Shown: positions 37,316-44,604 of the stretch, in pieces
How positions within the stretch are numbered: position 1 is the first letter of the stretch
How the letters are laid out: each line of letters begins with the position of its first letter
Origin: Methanococcoides methylutens
GTDB taxonomy: Archaea; Halobacteriota; Methanosarcinia; Methanosarcinales; Methanosarcinaceae
Direction of reading: 5' to 3'
DNA: 64,000 nt
NCBI RefSeq assembly: GCF_000765475.1
Contig: NZ_JRHO01000013.1
Location: 1-64,000, forward strand
Notes under the pieces: generated by a model
Told to the model about the DNA's origin: nothing
Seen by the model: only the letters and a program-made list of their open reading frames with translations
Databases searched by the model: none
Program-made: the position numbers and the translations under genes

Positions 37316-38908
37316 TCAATTCTTAGTTCCGTAGCACTTCTCAAGGTGATCCACTGCTGGTGGGGTCGTAACAAGACTTACACCAATTGCAACCAGCATT
37401 GCCAGAGGGGTTGCCACAAGGATCGGATCAATAACTGTCCATGTGCCTGTGAGCAATGTCTCTGTGCCAAAGAGTGCCTGACAGATTCCAAGAGGAGCTG
37501 CTTCTTTTGCATGGACGAAAGTTAGCCAGAAAAGGCTGCTGAAAGTACCAACGATAAGACTTGCAATTGCACCTTCTTTTGTCATTCTCTTCCAGAAGAG
37601 TGCACCCATATAAGTTGGGAGGAAAGCTGCTGCACAAAGTCCGAAGAAGATCGCAGTAGCCCTTGCAATGATGCTAATAGGCAAAATGTATGCAAGGATA
37701 ACACTGACCAGGATGGCCACTGAGATACCGATCTTTGTAACATCCACGGTCTTTCCTGCATTCCCTCTCATCATGAACTCGCGATAGAAGTCGTGTCCGA
37801 TGGCTGTTCCCATTGTGTGGAACTGTGAGCTAAGGGTTGACATTGCAGCTGCAAGCAAGGTGATCATGAAGACGATGACGAACATCTCAGGCATTGCAGT
37901 GTTGATGTATTCAGGCATGATGACGTCCATGTTTCCTTTTGCAACTTCAATGGCAAGCATTCCGGTAGTATTAAAGAAGTAAACGTTTGAAAGTCCACCT
38001 ACAATGTATGCGACACCTGCCATCATGAAGATGAAAGGACCACCAGCGAAGACTGCCCTGTTCAGGGATTTCTTACTGTCAACGGTCATGAACCTGACCG
38101 CAAGCTGTGGCTGTGCAAGCACACCTATGCCAACACCGAGGATGATGGTTGACACCATTGTCCACCAGATGGGTGAACCGAAGGCCGGCATTGCTGTCCA
38201 TCCCTGATGGCCACCTGCAGCCAGGTTTTCAGGTACAAGTGGTGCAAGATTAGTGAGTGCCTGATGAGCTTCAACGATACCGCCAAGCTTTGCATAGGTA
38301 AGTGCGAGAAGAACTGCCATACCACCAAGCATAAGGGTTCCCTGCAACGCATCGGTATACATAACAGCAAGCAATCCGCCTGTGATAACATAGGCAGCAA
38401 CAATAACTGTCAGGATAAGGACAGCAATATTATAGTCAACGGAAAGTGCAGTTTCCATGAATCTTGCACCACCGATAAGGACAATTCCTGCATAAAGAGG
38501 CATGAACAAAGCGATAAGAGCTCCGGAATAACCCTGAATGAAACGTGACTGGAACCGTCTTCCCAGAAGTTCAGGGAATGTAACAGCATTAAGGTTCACG
38601 CCAATGCTTCTTGTCCTTTTTCCAAATACGACAAAAGCGATGAAAATACCTACAAATATGTTCATGAATACGAGCCAGAGGGTTCCCAGGCCAAGCGTTC
38701 CTGTCACACCGCCAAAACCGATGATCGCAGCTGTACTGATAAATGCTGCACCATAGGAAAGTGCGAGAATGTAAGGATTGACCTTCCTTCCTGCGAGCAT
38801 ATAGTCGTCGACCTCTTTAGTTCTCCTGTATGCAAGCCAGCCGCAATAGAAAACGGCGAGCATATAGATCAGGACAAATATTCCCAGGGTTGAAGTACTG
38901 ACCGCCAT
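37316..38908 (-). CDS. Sodium:solute symporter (SSS family)
   Basis: 530 residues, about 13 membrane helices. The family pattern is shown by DYMLAGRKVNPYILALSYGAAFIST (shortened: DYMLAGRKVNP, ALSYGAAFIST), IGFGGVTGTLG, and ITGGLLAVMYTDALQGTLM, plus TLLAAAMSTLSSQFHTMG in the sodium-site region. It resembles the PanF/PutP/ActP group; the substrate cannot be called. The gene for a 39-residue companion precedes it by one base, and a terminator follows it. Confidence 0.88.
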   Translation of the reverse strand: MAVSTSTLGIFVLIYMLAVFYCGWLAYRRTKEVDDYMLAGRKVNPYILALSYGAAFISTAAIIGFGGVTGTLGLGTLWLVFMNIFVGIFIAFVVFGKRTRSIGVNLNAVTFPELLGRRFQSRFIQGYSGALIALFMPLYAGIVLIGGARFMETALSVDYNIAVLILTVIVAAYVITGGLLAVMYTDALQGTLMLGGMAVLLALTYAKLGGIVEAHQALTNLAPLVPENLAAGGHQGWTAMPAFGSPIWWTMVSTIILGVGIGVLAQPQLAVRFMTVDSKKSLNRAVFAGGPFIFMMAGVAYIVGGLSNVYFFNTTGMLAIEVAKGNMDVIMPEYINTAMPEMFVIVFMITLLAAAMSTLSSQFHTMGTAIGHDFYREFMMRGNAGKTVDVTKIGISVAILVSVILAYILPISIIARATAIFFGLCAAAFLPTYMGALFWKRMTKEGAIASLIVGTFSSLFWLTFVHAKEAAPLGICQALFGTETLLTGTWTVIDPILVATPLAMLVAIGVSLVTTPPAVDHLEKCYGTKN

Positions 38909-39331: not shown

Positions 39332-40237
39332 ATGAAAAAAATAACAGGCATTTTAATTTTTATTCTACTTATATCAACCCTGGGGATGGGTTGTGTTGAA
39401 TCAACTGAAGATACGGACGCCAGTGAACAGGAAGATATATTGCTAGCAGAAGAGCAGAGTGAGCTATATTCCCAGAAACAGGAAAGAATAGACCTGGTCA
39501 ATGCTGCTATTGAACTTATAGATGAAAAAGGAGAACTTGCATTTCCTGAATTCAGAGAAAAGGACAGCCAGTGGTACAATAATAATTCCTACATCACCGT
39601 CTGGAAGACTGAAGGAATACGTGTTGTCTTCCCTCCTAAAGTAAGTGGTGAAGGCGGAAGTGTGCTCGATCTTGAAGATTATAACGGTGAACCATTAGGC
39701 AGGATGATTATAGACACTGCTTTAAGCGAAGATGGCGAGGGATGGGTAAATTATTACTGGCCAAAACCAGGTGAGACCGCTCCTTCCAAGAAATCTACTT
39801 TCGTCAAGAGAACTACCATCGGTAACGAGACATATCTTGTGCATTCCGGCTTTTACGTCAATGACTACACCTATAATAAAAACCTTGAAGACATTGAAGA
39901 TATCAACCACTTTGGAGAAGCAACCATTAGAAATCTGATCAACCCGAACAGAGTTGATATGGGTCTGGATATAGACTACAGCATTGCACATTTTATAATT
40001 AAACCAGGTGATTTCCTTGAGCCCCTTATTATGAAGAACCCGGAAACATATTATGTTCTTGAGGGTGAAGGTATTCTCTACATAGAAGATGTGCCGTTTG
40101 AACTTAGGAAAGGACAACTTGTCCTTGTACCTGAAAACGCAAAGCAGCACATGGAGAACACCGGAGATGTTGACCTCGAGTTCCTTGCTATAAACGAGCC
40201 TGCCTGGAAACCAGAGCACGAGATAATTCTGGAGTGA
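39332..40237 (+). CDS. Cache-cupin surface lipoprotein, copy 1
   Basis: 301 residues. The hydrophobic start ends in GMGC (Cys 21), a weak lipobox. Residues about 45-165 resemble an extracellular single Cache sensor domain (AIELIDEKGELAFPEF, then YITVWKTEGIRVVFPP, then GWVNYYWPKPGE). A C-terminal cupin follows (about 225-295) with IIKPGDFLEPLIMKNPETYYVLEGEG and QLVLVPENAKQHMEN (shortened). The cupin motif 1 lacks the usual His pair: HxH is LxI here, though a His is present in motif 2. Tandem with a close paralogue. Sensing or binding a small ligand outside the cell is inferred. Confidence 0.75.
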   Translation: MKKITGILIFILLISTLGMGCVESTEDTDASEQEDILLAEEQSELYSQKQERIDLVNAAIELIDEKGELAFPEFREKDSQWYNNNSYITVWKTEGIRVVFPPKVSGEGGSVLDLEDYNGEPLGRMIIDTALSEDGEGWVNYYWPKPGETAPSKKSTFVKRTTIGNETYLVHSGFYVNDYTYNKNLEDIEDINHFGEATIRNLINPNRVDMGLDIDYSIAHFIIKPGDFLEPLIMKNPETYYVLEGEGILYIEDVPFELRKGQLVLVPENAKQHMENTGDVDLEFLAINEPAWKPEHEIILE

Positions 40238-40256
40238 TTTCTCACTCCACTTTTTT
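40231..40256 (+). terminator. Terminator overlapping the stop of cupin copy 1
   Basis: GGAGTGA (40231-40237) pairs with TCACTCC (40242-40248), loop 4 bases, then ACTTTTTT. The hairpin includes the TGA stop codon. Confidence 0.65.
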
Positions 40257-40413
40257 AAAGAAGTAGGCATTAGTAACTTTTACAGATAACCGGATCTTGT
40301 ATTTAATTTGGAATGAAGCAGAGAAGAGATAAAAGAACATCCTTGCTTTTTTGTTGATCTATTATATGTAAAATTTTAAACTTTCTCCTTAAATATTCAA
40401 TAGGTTTGATAAT

Positions 40414-41322
40414 ATGAGTGAACTAAAAAAGATACTTTGCGTTCTGTCCATGGCAATTCTGTTGCTGGTAGCTGCAGGCTGTGTGCAGCCAGATAATACA
40501 GAAATGAGTGAACAGGAAGATCAAATCATCATAGAAGCACATAATGAGCTATTATCCCAGAAACAGGATAGAATTGCTCTGGTCAATGCCGCTATTGAAC
40601 TGATCGATGAAAAAGGAGAGCTTGCATTTCCTGAATTCAGAGAGAACAACAGTCAGTGGTATCATGATGATTCCTACATCACCGTCTGGAAGGCTGAAGG
40701 AATACGGGTTGTTTACCCTCCTAAAGCAAGCGGTGAGGGCGAGGATGTGAAAGATCTTGAAGATTATAACGGTAAACCGTTCGGCAGGATGTTCATAGAC
40801 ACTGCTTTAAGTGAAGAGGGTGAGGGATGGGTCGATTATTACTGGCCAAAACCTGGCGAGACTTCTCCTTCCAAGAAGTATACATTCGTCAAGAGAACTA
40901 CGATCGATAACCAGACATACCTTGTGAATTCCGGCTTTTATCTCGATGACTACATCTACACCAATGATCTTGAAGATCTTGAACACTTCAGCCGTTTTGG
41001 AGACGTGTTTATTGGTAATTTATTCCACCCTGAAACAACTGATAAAGAACTGGAAGTCAATTACAGTATTGCTCATGTGATAATTAAGCCAGGTAAGTCC
41101 ATTGAATCTCATATGATGAAGAACCCCGAGGTATATTATGTCCTTGAAGGTGAAGGTGTGCTTTACATAGAAGATATGCCAGTTGAGCTGAGCAAAGGAA
41201 AGCTTGTCCACATACCTGCAAACTCAAAACAATCCACGGAGAACACCGGACATGTTGACCTTGAATTCTTTGCTATAAACGAGCCTGCCTGGGCAGAGGG
41301 GAATGAGGAAATGGTGGAGTGA
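40414..41322 (+). CDS. Cache-cupin surface lipoprotein, copy 2
   Basis: 302 residues, paralogue of the preceding gene over its whole length. Its lipobox LVAAGC (Cys 23) is textbook. The Cache-like part keeps AIELIDEKGELAFPEF, ITVWKAEGIRVVYPP, and GWVDYYWPKPGE. The cupin has IIKPGKSIESHMMKNPEVYYVLEGEG (shortened), so here a His (ESHMM) is present in motif 1, unlike copy 1. Each copy has its own terminator and an intergenic region of about 175 bases, so they may be expressed separately. Confidence 0.78.
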   Translation: MSELKKILCVLSMAILLLVAAGCVQPDNTEMSEQEDQIIIEAHNELLSQKQDRIALVNAAIELIDEKGELAFPEFRENNSQWYHDDSYITVWKAEGIRVVYPPKASGEGEDVKDLEDYNGKPFGRMFIDTALSEEGEGWVDYYWPKPGETSPSKKYTFVKRTTIDNQTYLVNSGFYLDDYIYTNDLEDLEHFSRFGDVFIGNLFHPETTDKELEVNYSIAHVIIKPGKSIESHMMKNPEVYYVLEGEGVLYIEDMPVELSKGKLVHIPANSKQSTENTGHVDLEFFAINEPAWAEGNEEMVE

Positions 41323-41345
41323 TCCACCATCACCCCTTTTCTTTT
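41311..41345 (+). terminator. Terminator overlapping the stop of cupin copy 2
   Basis: Perfect 8-bp arms ATGGTGGA (41311-41318) and TCCACCAT (41323-41330) around GTGA, which contains the stop, then CACCCCTTTTCTTTT. Confidence 0.7.
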
Positions 41346-41367: not shown

Positions 41368-42099
41368 TTACGGTGTCTTCCTGTAATGCTCAATCGCATC
41401 CTGTATTTCGGATGCTGTCACCTCATCAGTTATAAGCGAATAATAAGGGCTCAATTTATACCATTTCTTATTTTTGTATTCGATGTATAATTGTGTATCC
41501 AAATTGTAGTAATCTTTTTTCTGTTTTTGATATGCAAAAAGGGATAATGGCAACAGTGGGACCATTGATATAATTGTTCGCCATTCCCCCAGCATAACCA
41601 TATGTGTGACGAATGCAAAAATTATTAGAAAAGCTATGATTTTCAACATCAGGAGTGTTTTCTTTGAGTGCTGTACAAGCTTGTTGGCAATGATGGAACC
41701 AATCTCACTGTGGTTTAATGTAATTTTTTTAAGCCCGATGGAACTTAAATGCACACCAGAACCATTGACCAAAATACTTGCCTGAAAGCTCCTGGCCACA
41801 AGGAAATAGCATAAAAGATACGTCACTGACAGAATTATCAAATAATTCAAAAGACCAAGACGTGAAGGAAGGCGAAGCAATACACTAAATCCTATCATTA
41901 AGAAAGCAGTGTACAAGTTGCTATTGGTTGGAAAGATTACGTTAGCAGATTGGACCTGTCGAACATTAACTGTTTTACCCAAAGAACTTGCAGACTGGAA
42001 ATCCGGTGAGCAATTTTTTTGCGTTTGTCTAAACTCTATATCTTTCATCGGACACCACCCCATCATTTTCTTAATATTTTCTGCAAAACTATCAATCAT
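41368..42099 (-). CDS. DUF1673-type membrane protein with MGWCP leader (1)
   Basis: 243 residues. The N-terminal leader is FAENIKKMMGWCPMKDIEF; a hydrophilic linker with QSANVIFPTNSNL follows, then two pairs of membrane helices (about 62-105 and 145-190) and a cytosolic-looking tail ending EIQDAIEHYRKTP. The body is close to the 246-residue protein at 43411-44151, whereas the leader and linker (MKDIEFRQTQKNCSPD) are close to the one at 42096. It is therefore a mosaic. Last gene of the operon; its start overlaps the upstream stop by four bases. DUF1673 function is unknown. Confidence 0.75.
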   Translation of the reverse strand: MIDSFAENIKKMMGWCPMKDIEFRQTQKNCSPDFQSASSLGKTVNVRQVQSANVIFPTNSNLYTAFLMIGFSVLLRLPSRLGLLNYLIILSVTYLLCYFLVARSFQASILVNGSGVHLSSIGLKKITLNHSEIGSIIANKLVQHSKKTLLMLKIIAFLIIFAFVTHMVMLGEWRTIISMVPLLPLSLFAYQKQKKDYYNLDTQLYIEYKNKKWYKLSPYYSLITDEVTASEIQDAIEHYRKTP

Positions 42100-42824
42100 T
42101 TCTCCAATATCTCCTTCAGAGTTTGATACTCAATATCATTTCTTGGAAATAGCGTGATGGCCTTATTTTCAGCATGTATCTTAATCGCTTTTGGACAATG
42201 GGATCTCCGATGATTTTTATAAACCATATATATATAAAGAAAATAAGGGAACACAACCATTGTGGTATTTGATCTTATGTCTTCCAATAATAGAGATTTT
42301 GTTGACAAGTTGTATAAGTACCGGGTATGCACAAAAAAGGCCAGTAGCATAACTATAATGAGAACAATATAGAGCGGCTTTTTCCTGTACACGGTATTGT
42401 CAATAGTCTTTACTTCTTTAATCTTCTGTTTTGGAATGTTTATCGGTTTGAACAGAGGTGTTTTTATCATCAGTATTTCGGAACCAATGGAAACCCGGTT
42501 GTGATCGAACAGGAAGAAAAATGCCATCAACATAATGAGAACTAACACAAGGATAAGATGGCCTACCGGTGTTATGGTAAACTGATCGTTAAAAACTAAA
42601 ATCAGAAAAGACAAACTAAGGGTGAGTAAAATCGTTAACTGACGCCAATCTATCATTTGGAGGGGAATATCTTTTTCTTTGATTGATTGGTTATCCATTT
42701 GACTCAAATTCCCATTTTCAGATTTTAAATCCGGTGAGCAGTTGTTTTGAGTCGGTTTAAACTCTATATCTTTCATTGGACACCATCCCATGACTTTACG
42801 TATAGTTTCGATTAAAACAGTCAT
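42096..42824 (-). CDS. DUF1673-type membrane protein with MGWCP leader (2)
   Basis: 242 residues from ATG 42824, chosen because it lies one base after the upstream stop and begins MTVLIETIRKVMGWCPMKD. The linker (IEFKPTQNNCSPD) is shared with protein 1. The membrane part has two helix pairs (about 60-105 and 140-190); the soluble tail ends TLKEILEK. The body differs from proteins 1 and 4. Second to last in the operon. Confidence 0.72.
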   Translation of the reverse strand: MTVLIETIRKVMGWCPMKDIEFKPTQNNCSPDLKSENGNLSQMDNQSIKEKDIPLQMIDWRQLTILLTLSLSFLILVFNDQFTITPVGHLILVLVLIMLMAFFFLFDHNRVSIGSEILMIKTPLFKPINIPKQKIKEVKTIDNTVYRKKPLYIVLIIVMLLAFFVHTRYLYNLSTKSLLLEDIRSNTTMVVFPYFLYIYMVYKNHRRSHCPKAIKIHAENKAITLFPRNDIEYQTLKEILEK

Positions 42825-42825
42825 T

Positions 42826-43410
42826 TTATTCAGTCCTGAGGGTATTGATATCCACAGCAAAAAAGGATATTTTGTGAATGATCAATGTCTTCCCGTTCTT
42901 CTGCTCCCAATAGAGCACTCCGAGGATTTTTATCCAGACAAAGAGCATGGTACCCGATACAAATGCCATTCCTCCGGTAATATTAGTTACCAAAAATACA
43001 ACGAAAGCAATCAGGCTAATAATAACCAGAAATGTTATCGCTTTTTGTTTTCGGGTGGTTTGTGGTTGTACGCTCCCTCTGCAAGCAGCCTTATTAAATC
43101 TGTGCCAGTCATTCATTCCCATGAGAAAATGGAAGAACAAACCACTGATGGCGCCTATGAGGTACATGTCCAGATTAACTTTTCCATACTCATCAAAAGT
43201 AAAAACAGCCAGATACATGAGCAACAGTAATTCCATTAAGACTCTGTTGTGGTATTTATTCCACCACCCGTTATCCCTATGAGTCCTTTTACCTCTGTTA
43301 TTAGGCGTATTTATTGCCAGATTCTCGAATTGTACTGCATTTCGGGCTTCCATGGCACCCACATTTGGACACCATCCCATCATTCTTTTGACACTTTCAA
43401 AGGATACCAT
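42826..43410 (-). CDS. MGWCP-leader membrane protein (3)
   Basis: 194 residues. Leader SFESVKRMMGWCPNVGAME, a linker, then about four helices (from NRVLMELLLLMYLAVF to VTNITGGMAFVSGTMLFVWI). The tail is short. Its start directly follows the TAA of the upstream gene. Body unlike those of the neighbours apart from the helix layout. Function unknown. Confidence 0.7.
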   Translation of the reverse strand: MVSFESVKRMMGWCPNVGAMEARNAVQFENLAINTPNNRGKRTHRDNGWWNKYHNRVLMELLLLMYLAVFTFDEYGKVNLDMYLIGAISGLFFHFLMGMNDWHRFNKAACRGSVQPQTTRKQKAITFLVIISLIAFVVFLVTNITGGMAFVSGTMLFVWIKILGVLYWEQKNGKTLIIHKISFFAVDINTLRTE

Positions 43411-44151
43411 TTACTGTGTCCTCCTATAATGTTCAATAGCATTCTGTATTTTAGATGCTGTCATCTCGTCTGTCATAATTGAATAATCAGAAGTAAGTTC
43501 ATACCATCTTGTATACCGATTTTTGTTTTCATATTTGATGGATAATTGTGTATCTATGTCGTGATATTTCCCATTCAATTTATGTTTTACAAGTAAATAT
43601 CCGGGCACTAATGAGGCAATTGATATGATCATTTGCCACTCACCGCGTATCGTTGCTGAATAAACAGCCAATGAAACAAGAGCTGATAGTGGTATTGCCA
43701 GTAGTAGAATGATCAGAACTGTAGATCTAATACGCTTATTTGCTCTGACTGATCTTATTTCGTTGTACTTTAATGTAATATGCTTCAGCTCAAAAGATTG
43801 TAAATGAATCCCACTTTCATCAATTAATACGTTTGATTGAAGAAATTTTGTTACAAGGAAGTAATATATGAAATACATTGCAACGATGGTAGGAATCAGG
43901 ATTGTAGAACTCTCACCCCTGACTAAAAACAGAACCGCATTTAAAACTGATACAACGATAATGAAAAACAGGGAAGTATTTGCAGGGAACATCACGTTTT
44001 CAGATTGAACAAGTTCAATATTTGATCTTCTGGAAGGTTCGAGTGAAGTGTTTACAAAATCAAGATCCTGATTTGATCTCAATTTCATTGAAGGTGTATT
44101 CGGGCACCATCCCATGACTTTCCGTATAGTTTCTGCCACATTTATTGTCAT
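43411..44151 (-). CDS. DUF1673-type membrane protein with MGWCP leader (4)
   Basis: 246 residues. Leader VAETIRKVMGWCPNTPSMK; linker with VQSENVMFPANTSL; helix pairs at about 60-105 and 150-195; tail with STWYELTSDYSIMTDEMT-like sequence ending IQNAIEHYRRTQ. The archetype of the body shared with protein 1. It lies 33 bases after the stop of the leader-PLDc_N gene. Confidence 0.75.
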   Translation of the reverse strand: MTINVAETIRKVMGWCPNTPSMKLRSNQDLDFVNTSLEPSRRSNIELVQSENVMFPANTSLFFIIVVSVLNAVLFLVRGESSTILIPTIVAMYFIYYFLVTKFLQSNVLIDESGIHLQSFELKHITLKYNEIRSVRANKRIRSTVLIILLLAIPLSALVSLAVYSATIRGEWQMIISIASLVPGYLLVKHKLNGKYHDIDTQLSIKYENKNRYTRWYELTSDYSIMTDEMTASKIQNAIEHYRRTQ

Positions 44152-44184
44152 ACCAAATCCTCAACTTCTCAAACTGTTCCTCTG

Positions 44185-44604
44185 TCAGTTTTGTAGGTTC
44201 GTCTTGTTTTCCTGAATCTTTACCAGATAGTAATACAACACTGCACCTATGAAATTCAGGATTATCAGGACAGCCGACCAGATCAATTTATCATATTCGC
44301 CTTTACCGGGAAAACGATCTGTGCTTCTTTGCAGACAGTCGGCTAACATGAAAAACCAAAAAACAAGGGCCATTGCAATGATTCCCCATAATAGCTGACC
44401 GATGTGAAATGTGAATACGAATATCGCGAAAAATACTATAAGTCCAACGATTGTCCATTCTGAATTTCTTTTATTCACCTTTCCTGATGGTTTCAGTGAA
44501 GTGTTTGCAAAATCAATCTGCTGAGATGATTTTAATCTCCCCATATTTGCATTGGGACACCATCCCATGATTCTCCGTATCGTTTCTGCCACATTTATTG
44601 TCAT
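44185..44604 (-). CDS. MGWCP leader fused to PLDc_N-like membrane domain (5)
   Basis: 139 residues. Residues 1-44 are the leader (VAETIRRIMGWCPNANMGRL) and a linker with DFANTSLKPS; residues 45-139 are three hydrophobic segments with FHIGQLLWGIIAMALVFWFFML and DYDKLIWSAVLIILNFIGAVLYY-like sequence (shortened), the pattern of PLDc_N-type small membrane proteins. The same membrane domain without leader is encoded divergently at 45306-45596. First structural gene after the regulator, with an ATGA start-stop overlap (44601-44604). Confidence 0.75.
   Translation of the reverse strand: MTINVAETIRRIMGWCPNANMGRLKSSQQIDFANTSLKPSGKVNKRNSEWTIVGLIVFFAIFVFTFHIGQLLWGIIAMALVFWFFMLADCLQRSTDRFPGKGEYDKLIWSAVLIILNFIGAVLYYYLVKIQENKTNLQN

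Follow-up and report, generated by a model that had tools for sequence, protein, structure and literature searches.

Tandem Cache-cupin lipobox proteins of Methanococcoides methylutens, candidate extracytoplasmic ligand-binding proteins without a signalling module

Introduction

Cache domains are counted as the principal sensors that prokaryotes direct to the outside of the cell, and have been described attached to signalling outputs; an excerpt of the domain-architecture analysis by Upadhyay and others reports known signalling outputs for the Cache families except SMP_2 (PMC4822843). In archaeal kinases, according to part of a census of two-component systems, Cache domains occur almost only in Methanomicrobia (PMC5847659). 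In PscD of Pseudomonas syringae, propionate is held by Tyr90, His103, Tyr143 and Lys156, with Trp92 and Trp145 flanking the ligand and Phe126 behind it, and the excerpted account names Tyr90, His103 and Lys156 as the carboxylate-binding, critical residues (PMC5062169). Metal-dependent cupin enzymes of the DddK and TM1287 type are characterized by two His and a Glu in motif 1 together with a His in motif 2.

In a literature search whose coverage mostly excluded subscription journals, we found no paper pairing a Cache domain with a cupin domain, none on Cache-domain lipoproteins in methanogens and no relevant one on solitary Cache proteins. The individual parts of the proteins described here are known; the Cache-cupin combination, a clade of cupins lacking the motif-1 His and the use of Cache domains without an output are new.

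Results and Discussion

Two neighboring lipobox proteins combine a Cache domain with a cupin

We analyzed a stretch of 64,000 nucleotides from M. methylutens (contig NZ_JRHO01000013.1, positions 1 to 64,000; referred to as the window), in which two genes, copy 1 and copy 2, encode lipobox proteins with 65% identity over 301 compared positions (Table 1). In copy 1, the Pfam profiles dCache_2 (E 3.7e-15), sCache_2 (9e-12) and Cupin_2 (2.6e-11) all score above their curated cut-offs, and the same holds for sCache_2 (5.8e-15), dCache_2 (1.8e-14) and Cupin_2 (1.6e-12) in copy 2. For the two Cache profiles, the scores of 45.6-56.3 bits in both copies compare with cut-offs of 25 and 26.5. No signalling output domain was matched in either copy by Pfam or NCBIfam models, nor is there room for one: at the C-terminus, where a Cache receptor carries an MCP, kinase or cyclase module, both proteins have the cupin.

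Table 1. Positions of the genes, domains and sites discussed in the text.
Feature	Position in window	Strand	Basis
SSF sodium:solute symporter, divergent neighbor, outside the system on present evidence	37316..38908	-	
Small accessory protein of the symporter, NF045580	38910..39029	-	Start inferred at internal Met where family match begins
Copy 1, lipobox protein, 301 aa, Cache + cupin, motif-1 His absent from cupin	39332..40237	+	ORF, Pfam, AlphaFold model
Copy 1, lipobox Cys21	39392..39394	+	Read off sequence (..LGMGC)
Copy 1, Cache domain, residues 44-177	39461..39862	+	Pfam; 4k08 structure match, Z 18.5
Copy 1, cupin domain, residues 181-296	39872..40219	+	Pfam, alignment, structure match
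Copy 1, codon of Leu232	40025-40027	+	Alignment
Copy 1, codon of Gln272	40145-40147	+	Alignment
Terminator-like hairpin and T run, overlapping copy 1 stop	40230..40257	+	Folding, pattern scan
Copy 2, lipobox protein, 302 aa, Cache + cupin	40414..41322	+	ORF, Pfam, AlphaFold model
Copy 2, lipobox Cys23	40480..40482	+	Read off sequence (..VAAGC)
Copy 2, Cache domain, residues 43-178	40540..40947	+	Pfam; 4k08 structure match, Z 18.1
Copy 2, cupin domain, residues 180-302	40951..41319	+	Pfam, alignment, structure match
Copy 2, codon of His233	41110-41112	+	Alignment
Copy 2, codon of Gln273	41230-41232	+	Alignment
Hairpin over copy 2 stop, followed by T-rich sequence	41311..41330	+	Folding

AlphaFold2 models of copy 1 (mean pLDDT 84.8, 33 sequences) and copy 2 (mean pLDDT 83.1, 22 sequences) are confident in both domains. 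The modeled Cache part consists of a long N-terminal helix (H45-76) followed by a sheet, and the cupin part forms a double-stranded beta-helix. Among the best 50 matches of the structure searches (VIA, Foldseek), the Cache parts of both copies align over 129 residues with Adeh_3718 (4k08) and over 132 residues with PscD-SD (5g4y; Z 17.2 and 17.6), the fold shared with the sCache_2 domains of chemoreceptors (Z 17-18.5 overall). The cupin parts match the DMSP lyase DddK with Z 17.9 in both cases, over 121 residues in copy 2 (5tfz) and 119 in copy 1 (6a55), at about 24% identity; 6a53 is a further DddK match. Sequence searches gave the same domain assignments as these fold matches. Unlike chemoreceptors with an sCache_2 domain, the Cache-cupin proteins have neither a transmembrane nor an MCP part, and carry a lipobox anchor and a C-terminal cupin instead.

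The first-pass annotation had described a Cache-like domain joined to a cupin on a lipoprotein devoid of a signalling module, and had named an N-terminal fold unrelated to Cache as the outcome that would speak against it. Sequence, profiles and predicted fold agree with its description, and the predicted N-terminal fold is that of a Cache domain (4k08, Z about 18). The pairing of Cache and cupin is real, if unusual.

The N-termini of both copies are hydrophobic and lead into the lipobox Cys, which suggests that both proteins are exported and anchored to the membrane. In the models, pLDDT is low until about residue 43. Across the family (33 aligned members, see below), the lipobox Gly-Cys is present in 23 and absent in 10.

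The hairpins at the stop codons of copy 1 and copy 2 have minimum free energies of -11.5 and -12.3 kcal/mol (z -3.05 and -2.64). A terminator pattern scan scored the former and not the latter; it found two sites where 1.5 were expected in the stretch. Given the terminator-like hairpin that closes copy 1, it is likely, though not certain, that the two genes are transcribed separately. In the closest relative (G001, L036:6505-12239), three more genes sit between the two Cache-cupin genes; their products are a papain-like protease that also has lectin-like, PKD and NosD parts, a protein of TPR type and one of 249 aa.

Full-length fusions are confined to Methanosarcinaceae among the archaea sampled

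Proteins matching both domains were found in 17 of the 99 relatives searched, all of them among the 60 that belong to the same family and none among 39 others of the order (counted by hand). Within the genus, hand counting of 11 genomes gave a full-length gene in five, a cupin-side remnant in two, a Cache-only protein in two and neither in two. Recoding at the stops inside the Cache-only matches could be ruled out, as these stops are the natural ends of Cache-only proteins and their codons differ. One genus member (G005, L039:9793-10377) carries a second Cache-cupin gene in which a TAA separates the Cache half from the cupin half; it adjoins genes for a further SSF symporter and for a lipoprotein of 2xCache type. 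In a phylum-wide sample, at least 28 of 392 genomes have a both-domain match, which among the matches listed are only Methanosarcinaceae (counted by hand). Full-length fusions are thus limited to this family among the archaea sampled.

A scan of 84,980 species genomes yielded 79 loci, of which eight Cache proteins and one cupin were analyzed with Pfam. Our alignment of 33 family members is a selection from these loci that leaves out truncated, broken, Cache-only, cupin-only, bacterial and near-duplicate rows. Apart from the methanogen fusions, the 79 loci mostly encode proteins in which the Cache domain occurs once, twice or four times, without an output domain and, in most cases, behind a signal-like N-terminus. 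Such exported, output-free Cache proteins occur in many bacterial and archaeal lineages; examples such as L108, L119, L127 and L140 share with the Cache-cupins an sCache_2/dCache_2 domain lacking a signalling output, and differ in the number of Cache domains (one, two or four) and the absence of a cupin. In the window genome itself, all four above-cut-off dCache_2 matches lie outside receptors: copy 1, copy 2 and Cache-only lipoproteins on contigs 15 and 2. The single MCP of this genome is not among them, and a fifth match, in a 745-aa frame, falls below the cut-off. The premise that a Cache domain is normally part of a receptor therefore does not hold for this sub-family. Its output-free members above the cut-off in the window genome, two of them joined to a cupin, suggest a split design with sensing and signalling on different proteins. 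At two other archaeal loci, L107:5854-6744 (a Bathyarchaeota MAG) and L115:5716-6678 (Methanomethylicus), a hydrophobic, membrane-type region replaces the cupin after the same type of Cache domain.

The scan also retrieved two bacterial loci, L126 (a Bacteroidota MAG) and L130 (a Verrucomicrobiales MAG), both encoding 4xCache+Cupin_2 proteins; in L126 (2463-7179) two such genes stand in tandem. They are rare: two phylum samples contained one each among 395 and 288 genomes, in each case the already known genome. Like the methanogen proteins, they unite Cache and Cupin_2 on one polypeptide behind a signal-like N-terminal stretch, but they differ in having four Cache repeats, a cupin of another sub-lineage and a full metal motif (His-x-His, Glu, His; read from one protein per locus, the second gene in L126). 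Given the intact motif and the different sub-lineage, the bacterial fusion is probably independent.

The Cache pocket and a possible role in ligand binding

We favor, with middling confidence, the view that Cache-cupins are membrane-tethered extracytoplasmic ligand-binding lipoproteins that are read out in trans and use the cupin as a second module. Both proteins would be anchored on the outer face of the cytoplasmic membrane, where the Cache domain may capture a small metabolite; its probable ligand is a short organic acid or a comparable molecule. The cupin, its classical metal site lost before the fusion, would act as a second, non-metal binding module or dock a partner, and the bound state might be read by a separate membrane protein, kinase or transporter; a read-out in trans is proposed because the proteins have no output module.

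We mapped the PscD contacts by sequence alignment onto the 33 family members. Four of the columns are retained: Tyr at Tyr90 in 28, Tyr at Tyr143 in 32, Trp at Trp145 in all 33, and at Lys156 Lys in 28 and Arg in four. The Trp92 column holds Thr, Phe, Ser or Leu, and that of His103 Tyr, Phe, Cys or Ser (Tyr in copy 2, Phe in copy 1). At Phe126, 31 of 33 members have Gly, although the alignment is possibly out of register there. The Cache-cupins thus keep the Tyr and Lys of a PscD-type site for C2/C3 carboxylates and have replaced its His, so that the pocket, as far as aligned residues can tell, resembles a carboxylate site minus its His. In a control with random columns, 2199 of 20000 sets were as conserved as the six mapped contact columns, which as a set are therefore not unusual; for the four retained columns, chosen post hoc, the figure was 356 of 20000.

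Retention of the four pocket residues, and of Glu239 and Gln273 in the cupin, across the alignment supports binding of a ligand. The purifying selection on both copies and the exchange of Cache halves described below are in line with the favored view, as are the setting of dCache_2 outside receptors in the window genome and the wide spread of related solitary Cache proteins. Against it count the replacement of Trp92 and His103, the unremarkable conservation of the six contact columns as a set, the loss or truncation of the genes in several species of the genus and the lack, in the neighborhoods compared, of a partner gene conserved beside the fusion across genera. Some of these observations would also fit structural or envelope lipoproteins that reuse two stable folds and have lost small-ligand binding. 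Positions 92 and 103 of PscD are replaced, the whole contact set is conserved no better than chance and gene loss within the genus is frequent; moreover, archaea of this kind commonly have small lipoproteins in abundance. Pure scaffolding, however, would not need a near-invariant aromatic/Lys pocket and cupin Glu/Gln pair, and we consider a structural role unlikely.

Loss of the classical cupin metal site probably preceded the fusion

Aligned with TM1287 (1o4t) and DddK, the metal positions of copy 2 are occupied by His233, Met235, Glu239 and Gln273 and those of copy 1 by Leu232, Met, Glu and Gln272, whereas DddK has His, His, Glu and His. The predicted export of the Cache-cupins is a further difference from DddK. 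In both copies Met stands in place of the second His of motif 1 and Gln in place of the motif-2 His, so that copy 2 retains at most one of three classical His residues and copy 1 retains none of them. The first-pass annotation had noted that the copies differ at the metal site, with a His in motif 1 of copy 2 only; this is correct for His233 but understates the change, which extends to Met and Gln in both proteins. Throughout the family, position 1 is His in 25 members, Leu in seven and Tyr in one, position 2 is never His (0/33), Glu occupies the Glu239 column in 32 and Gln the Gln273 column in all 33.

The closest cupin lineage consists of single-domain proteins from other archaea and Candidatus Brocadia (L064-L066, L131, L157-L163 and others), which, unlike the fusion, lack both a Cache domain and an evident export signal and mostly comprise one domain. 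Reading the motif by eye in the 19 rows recovered from 24 loci, we found the motif-2 Gln and the Glu in 19 of 19 and the first His in 18 of 19; as the homologues were collected with the family profile, these counts apply to this cupin lineage and not to cupins at large. Because the single-domain cupins already carry the Gln, the classical metal site was, on the aligned motifs, most simply gone before a Cache domain was joined to the cupin, and copy 1 would then have lost the last His.

These observations bear on whether the proteins are enzymes in which the cupin, as an isomerase, lyase or similar, converts a small substrate bound by the Cache domain. In the cupin cavity, Glu239 and Gln273 hardly vary; the solved cupin folds nearest to these proteins among the matches listed (DddK, phosphomannose isomerase, KdgF and Pac13) all belong to enzymes; and genes for predicted membrane glycosyltransferases (named by eye) adjoin a single-domain cupin in L162 (1598-3573) and L163 (1-2017) and lie nearby in L167. 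But neither copy has the 3-His/Glu site, the column aligned with Tyr64 of DddK is not an invariant Tyr, and a substrate pathway is not visible in the neighborhood. We therefore regard catalysis as quite unlikely, and a metal-dependent cupin enzyme as less likely than a non-metal binding module. Of the two roles suggested by the first-pass annotation, ligand binding is the best supported, while isomerization is not supported, the metal motif being mostly lost, a loss that preceded the fusion, and no neighbor pointing to a reaction. These methanogens can use dimethylsulfide; identity as a DddK-like DMSP lyase is ruled out by the metal motif. The glycosyltransferase neighbors, which come from three genomes of one family and are the only common partner among the single-domain cupin neighborhoods listed, may hint at a sugar-related role of single-domain cupins.

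Genomic neighbors and possible partners

Upstream of copy 1 lies a divergent SSF symporter gene, together with that of its small accessory protein, and the lipoproteins could be accessory subunits that deliver its substrate or gate it in the manner of a binding protein. The symporter is the divergent neighbor of the fusion in the window, and six genomes of the genus have it close to a full-length or remnant copy. In G004 and G005, Cache lipoproteins lie beside another SSF symporter, a more distant one. Among NCBIfam models, that of the kinase MctS comes closest to the Cache part, at scores far under its cut-off (31.9 and 40.9 bits against 700). The symporter orthologue is, however, present in 11 of 11 genus genomes, five of which (G003, G004, G006, G007 and G010) have no Cache-cupin gene adjoining it, and other genera carry the fusion elsewhere. 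The linkage in the window therefore reflects shared synteny, and amounts to one syntenic locus in the genus plus the second SSF locus in two species. On the basis of these five genomes, we reject an operon with the neighboring symporter as a general link. No requirement for a binding protein is known for SSF symporters, and we consider an accessory role distinctly improbable.

In other genera, the genes neighboring the fusion, identified by eye from their translations, encode MATE pumps, regulators of the MarR and TrmB types, exonuclease III, an M4-like protease and a rubrerythrin-like protein. Returning to the ligand-binding lipoproteins that we favor, a lead for sensing in trans comes from two genus members, G007 and G010 (L059:9209-12048 and L060:7599-10354), in which a Cache-only lipoprotein gene is located directly downstream of a PAS/HisKA/HATPase_c kinase gene. 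The G007 kinase also has a sub-cut-off Pfam match to MEDS. Lipoprotein and kinase are possibly a pair.

Downstream of copy 2, the opposite strand of the window (41368-44604) encodes a cluster of paralogous proteins whose starts read ...MGWCP...; the gene at 41368-42099 has at most a sub-cut-off match to DUF1673.

Both copies are maintained and their halves have separate histories

The 7 of 33 rows lacking the His fall into a single clade when the cupin halves are placed in a tree (support 100/100); this clade spans Methanococcoides-type, Methanolobus and Methanosarcina genomes. The same seven rows are not one clade in the tree of the Cache halves, where four label changes are needed and at least two of them are forced by well-supported branches. 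With the cupin clade intact and its Cache halves scattered, the Cache halves were exchanged or homogenized while the cupin halves stayed apart. Single proteins display this shuffling directly: that of G005 is copy-1-like to about residue 180 and copy-2-like beyond, and the G009 protein is a mosaic as well.

Extending the ligand-binding view to all exported Cache-cupins, these proteins of multiple origins could be unrecognized two-pocket, tethered co-receptors. An exchangeable Cache domain would sense a common molecule, diversified cupins, including the His-less clade, would set a second specificity, and kinases or transporters would read the state in trans. We rate this broader scheme as fairly unlikely.

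Between the two closest genomes (G000 and G001), the orthologues of copy 1 have a dN/dS of 0.20 and those of copy 2 one of 0.18; the copy 1 cupin has changed at 0 of 239 nonsynonymous and 6 of 67 synonymous sites. These values indicate that neither copy is decaying. The loss of its last motif-1 His might suggest that copy 1 is degenerating as a duplicate of copy 2, but this is highly improbable in view of the purifying selection and of the well-supported His-less clade that crosses genera. Should a ligand be identified, the natural pair, in which one copy has the cupin His and the other lacks it, would provide a ready comparison of the role of the cupin.
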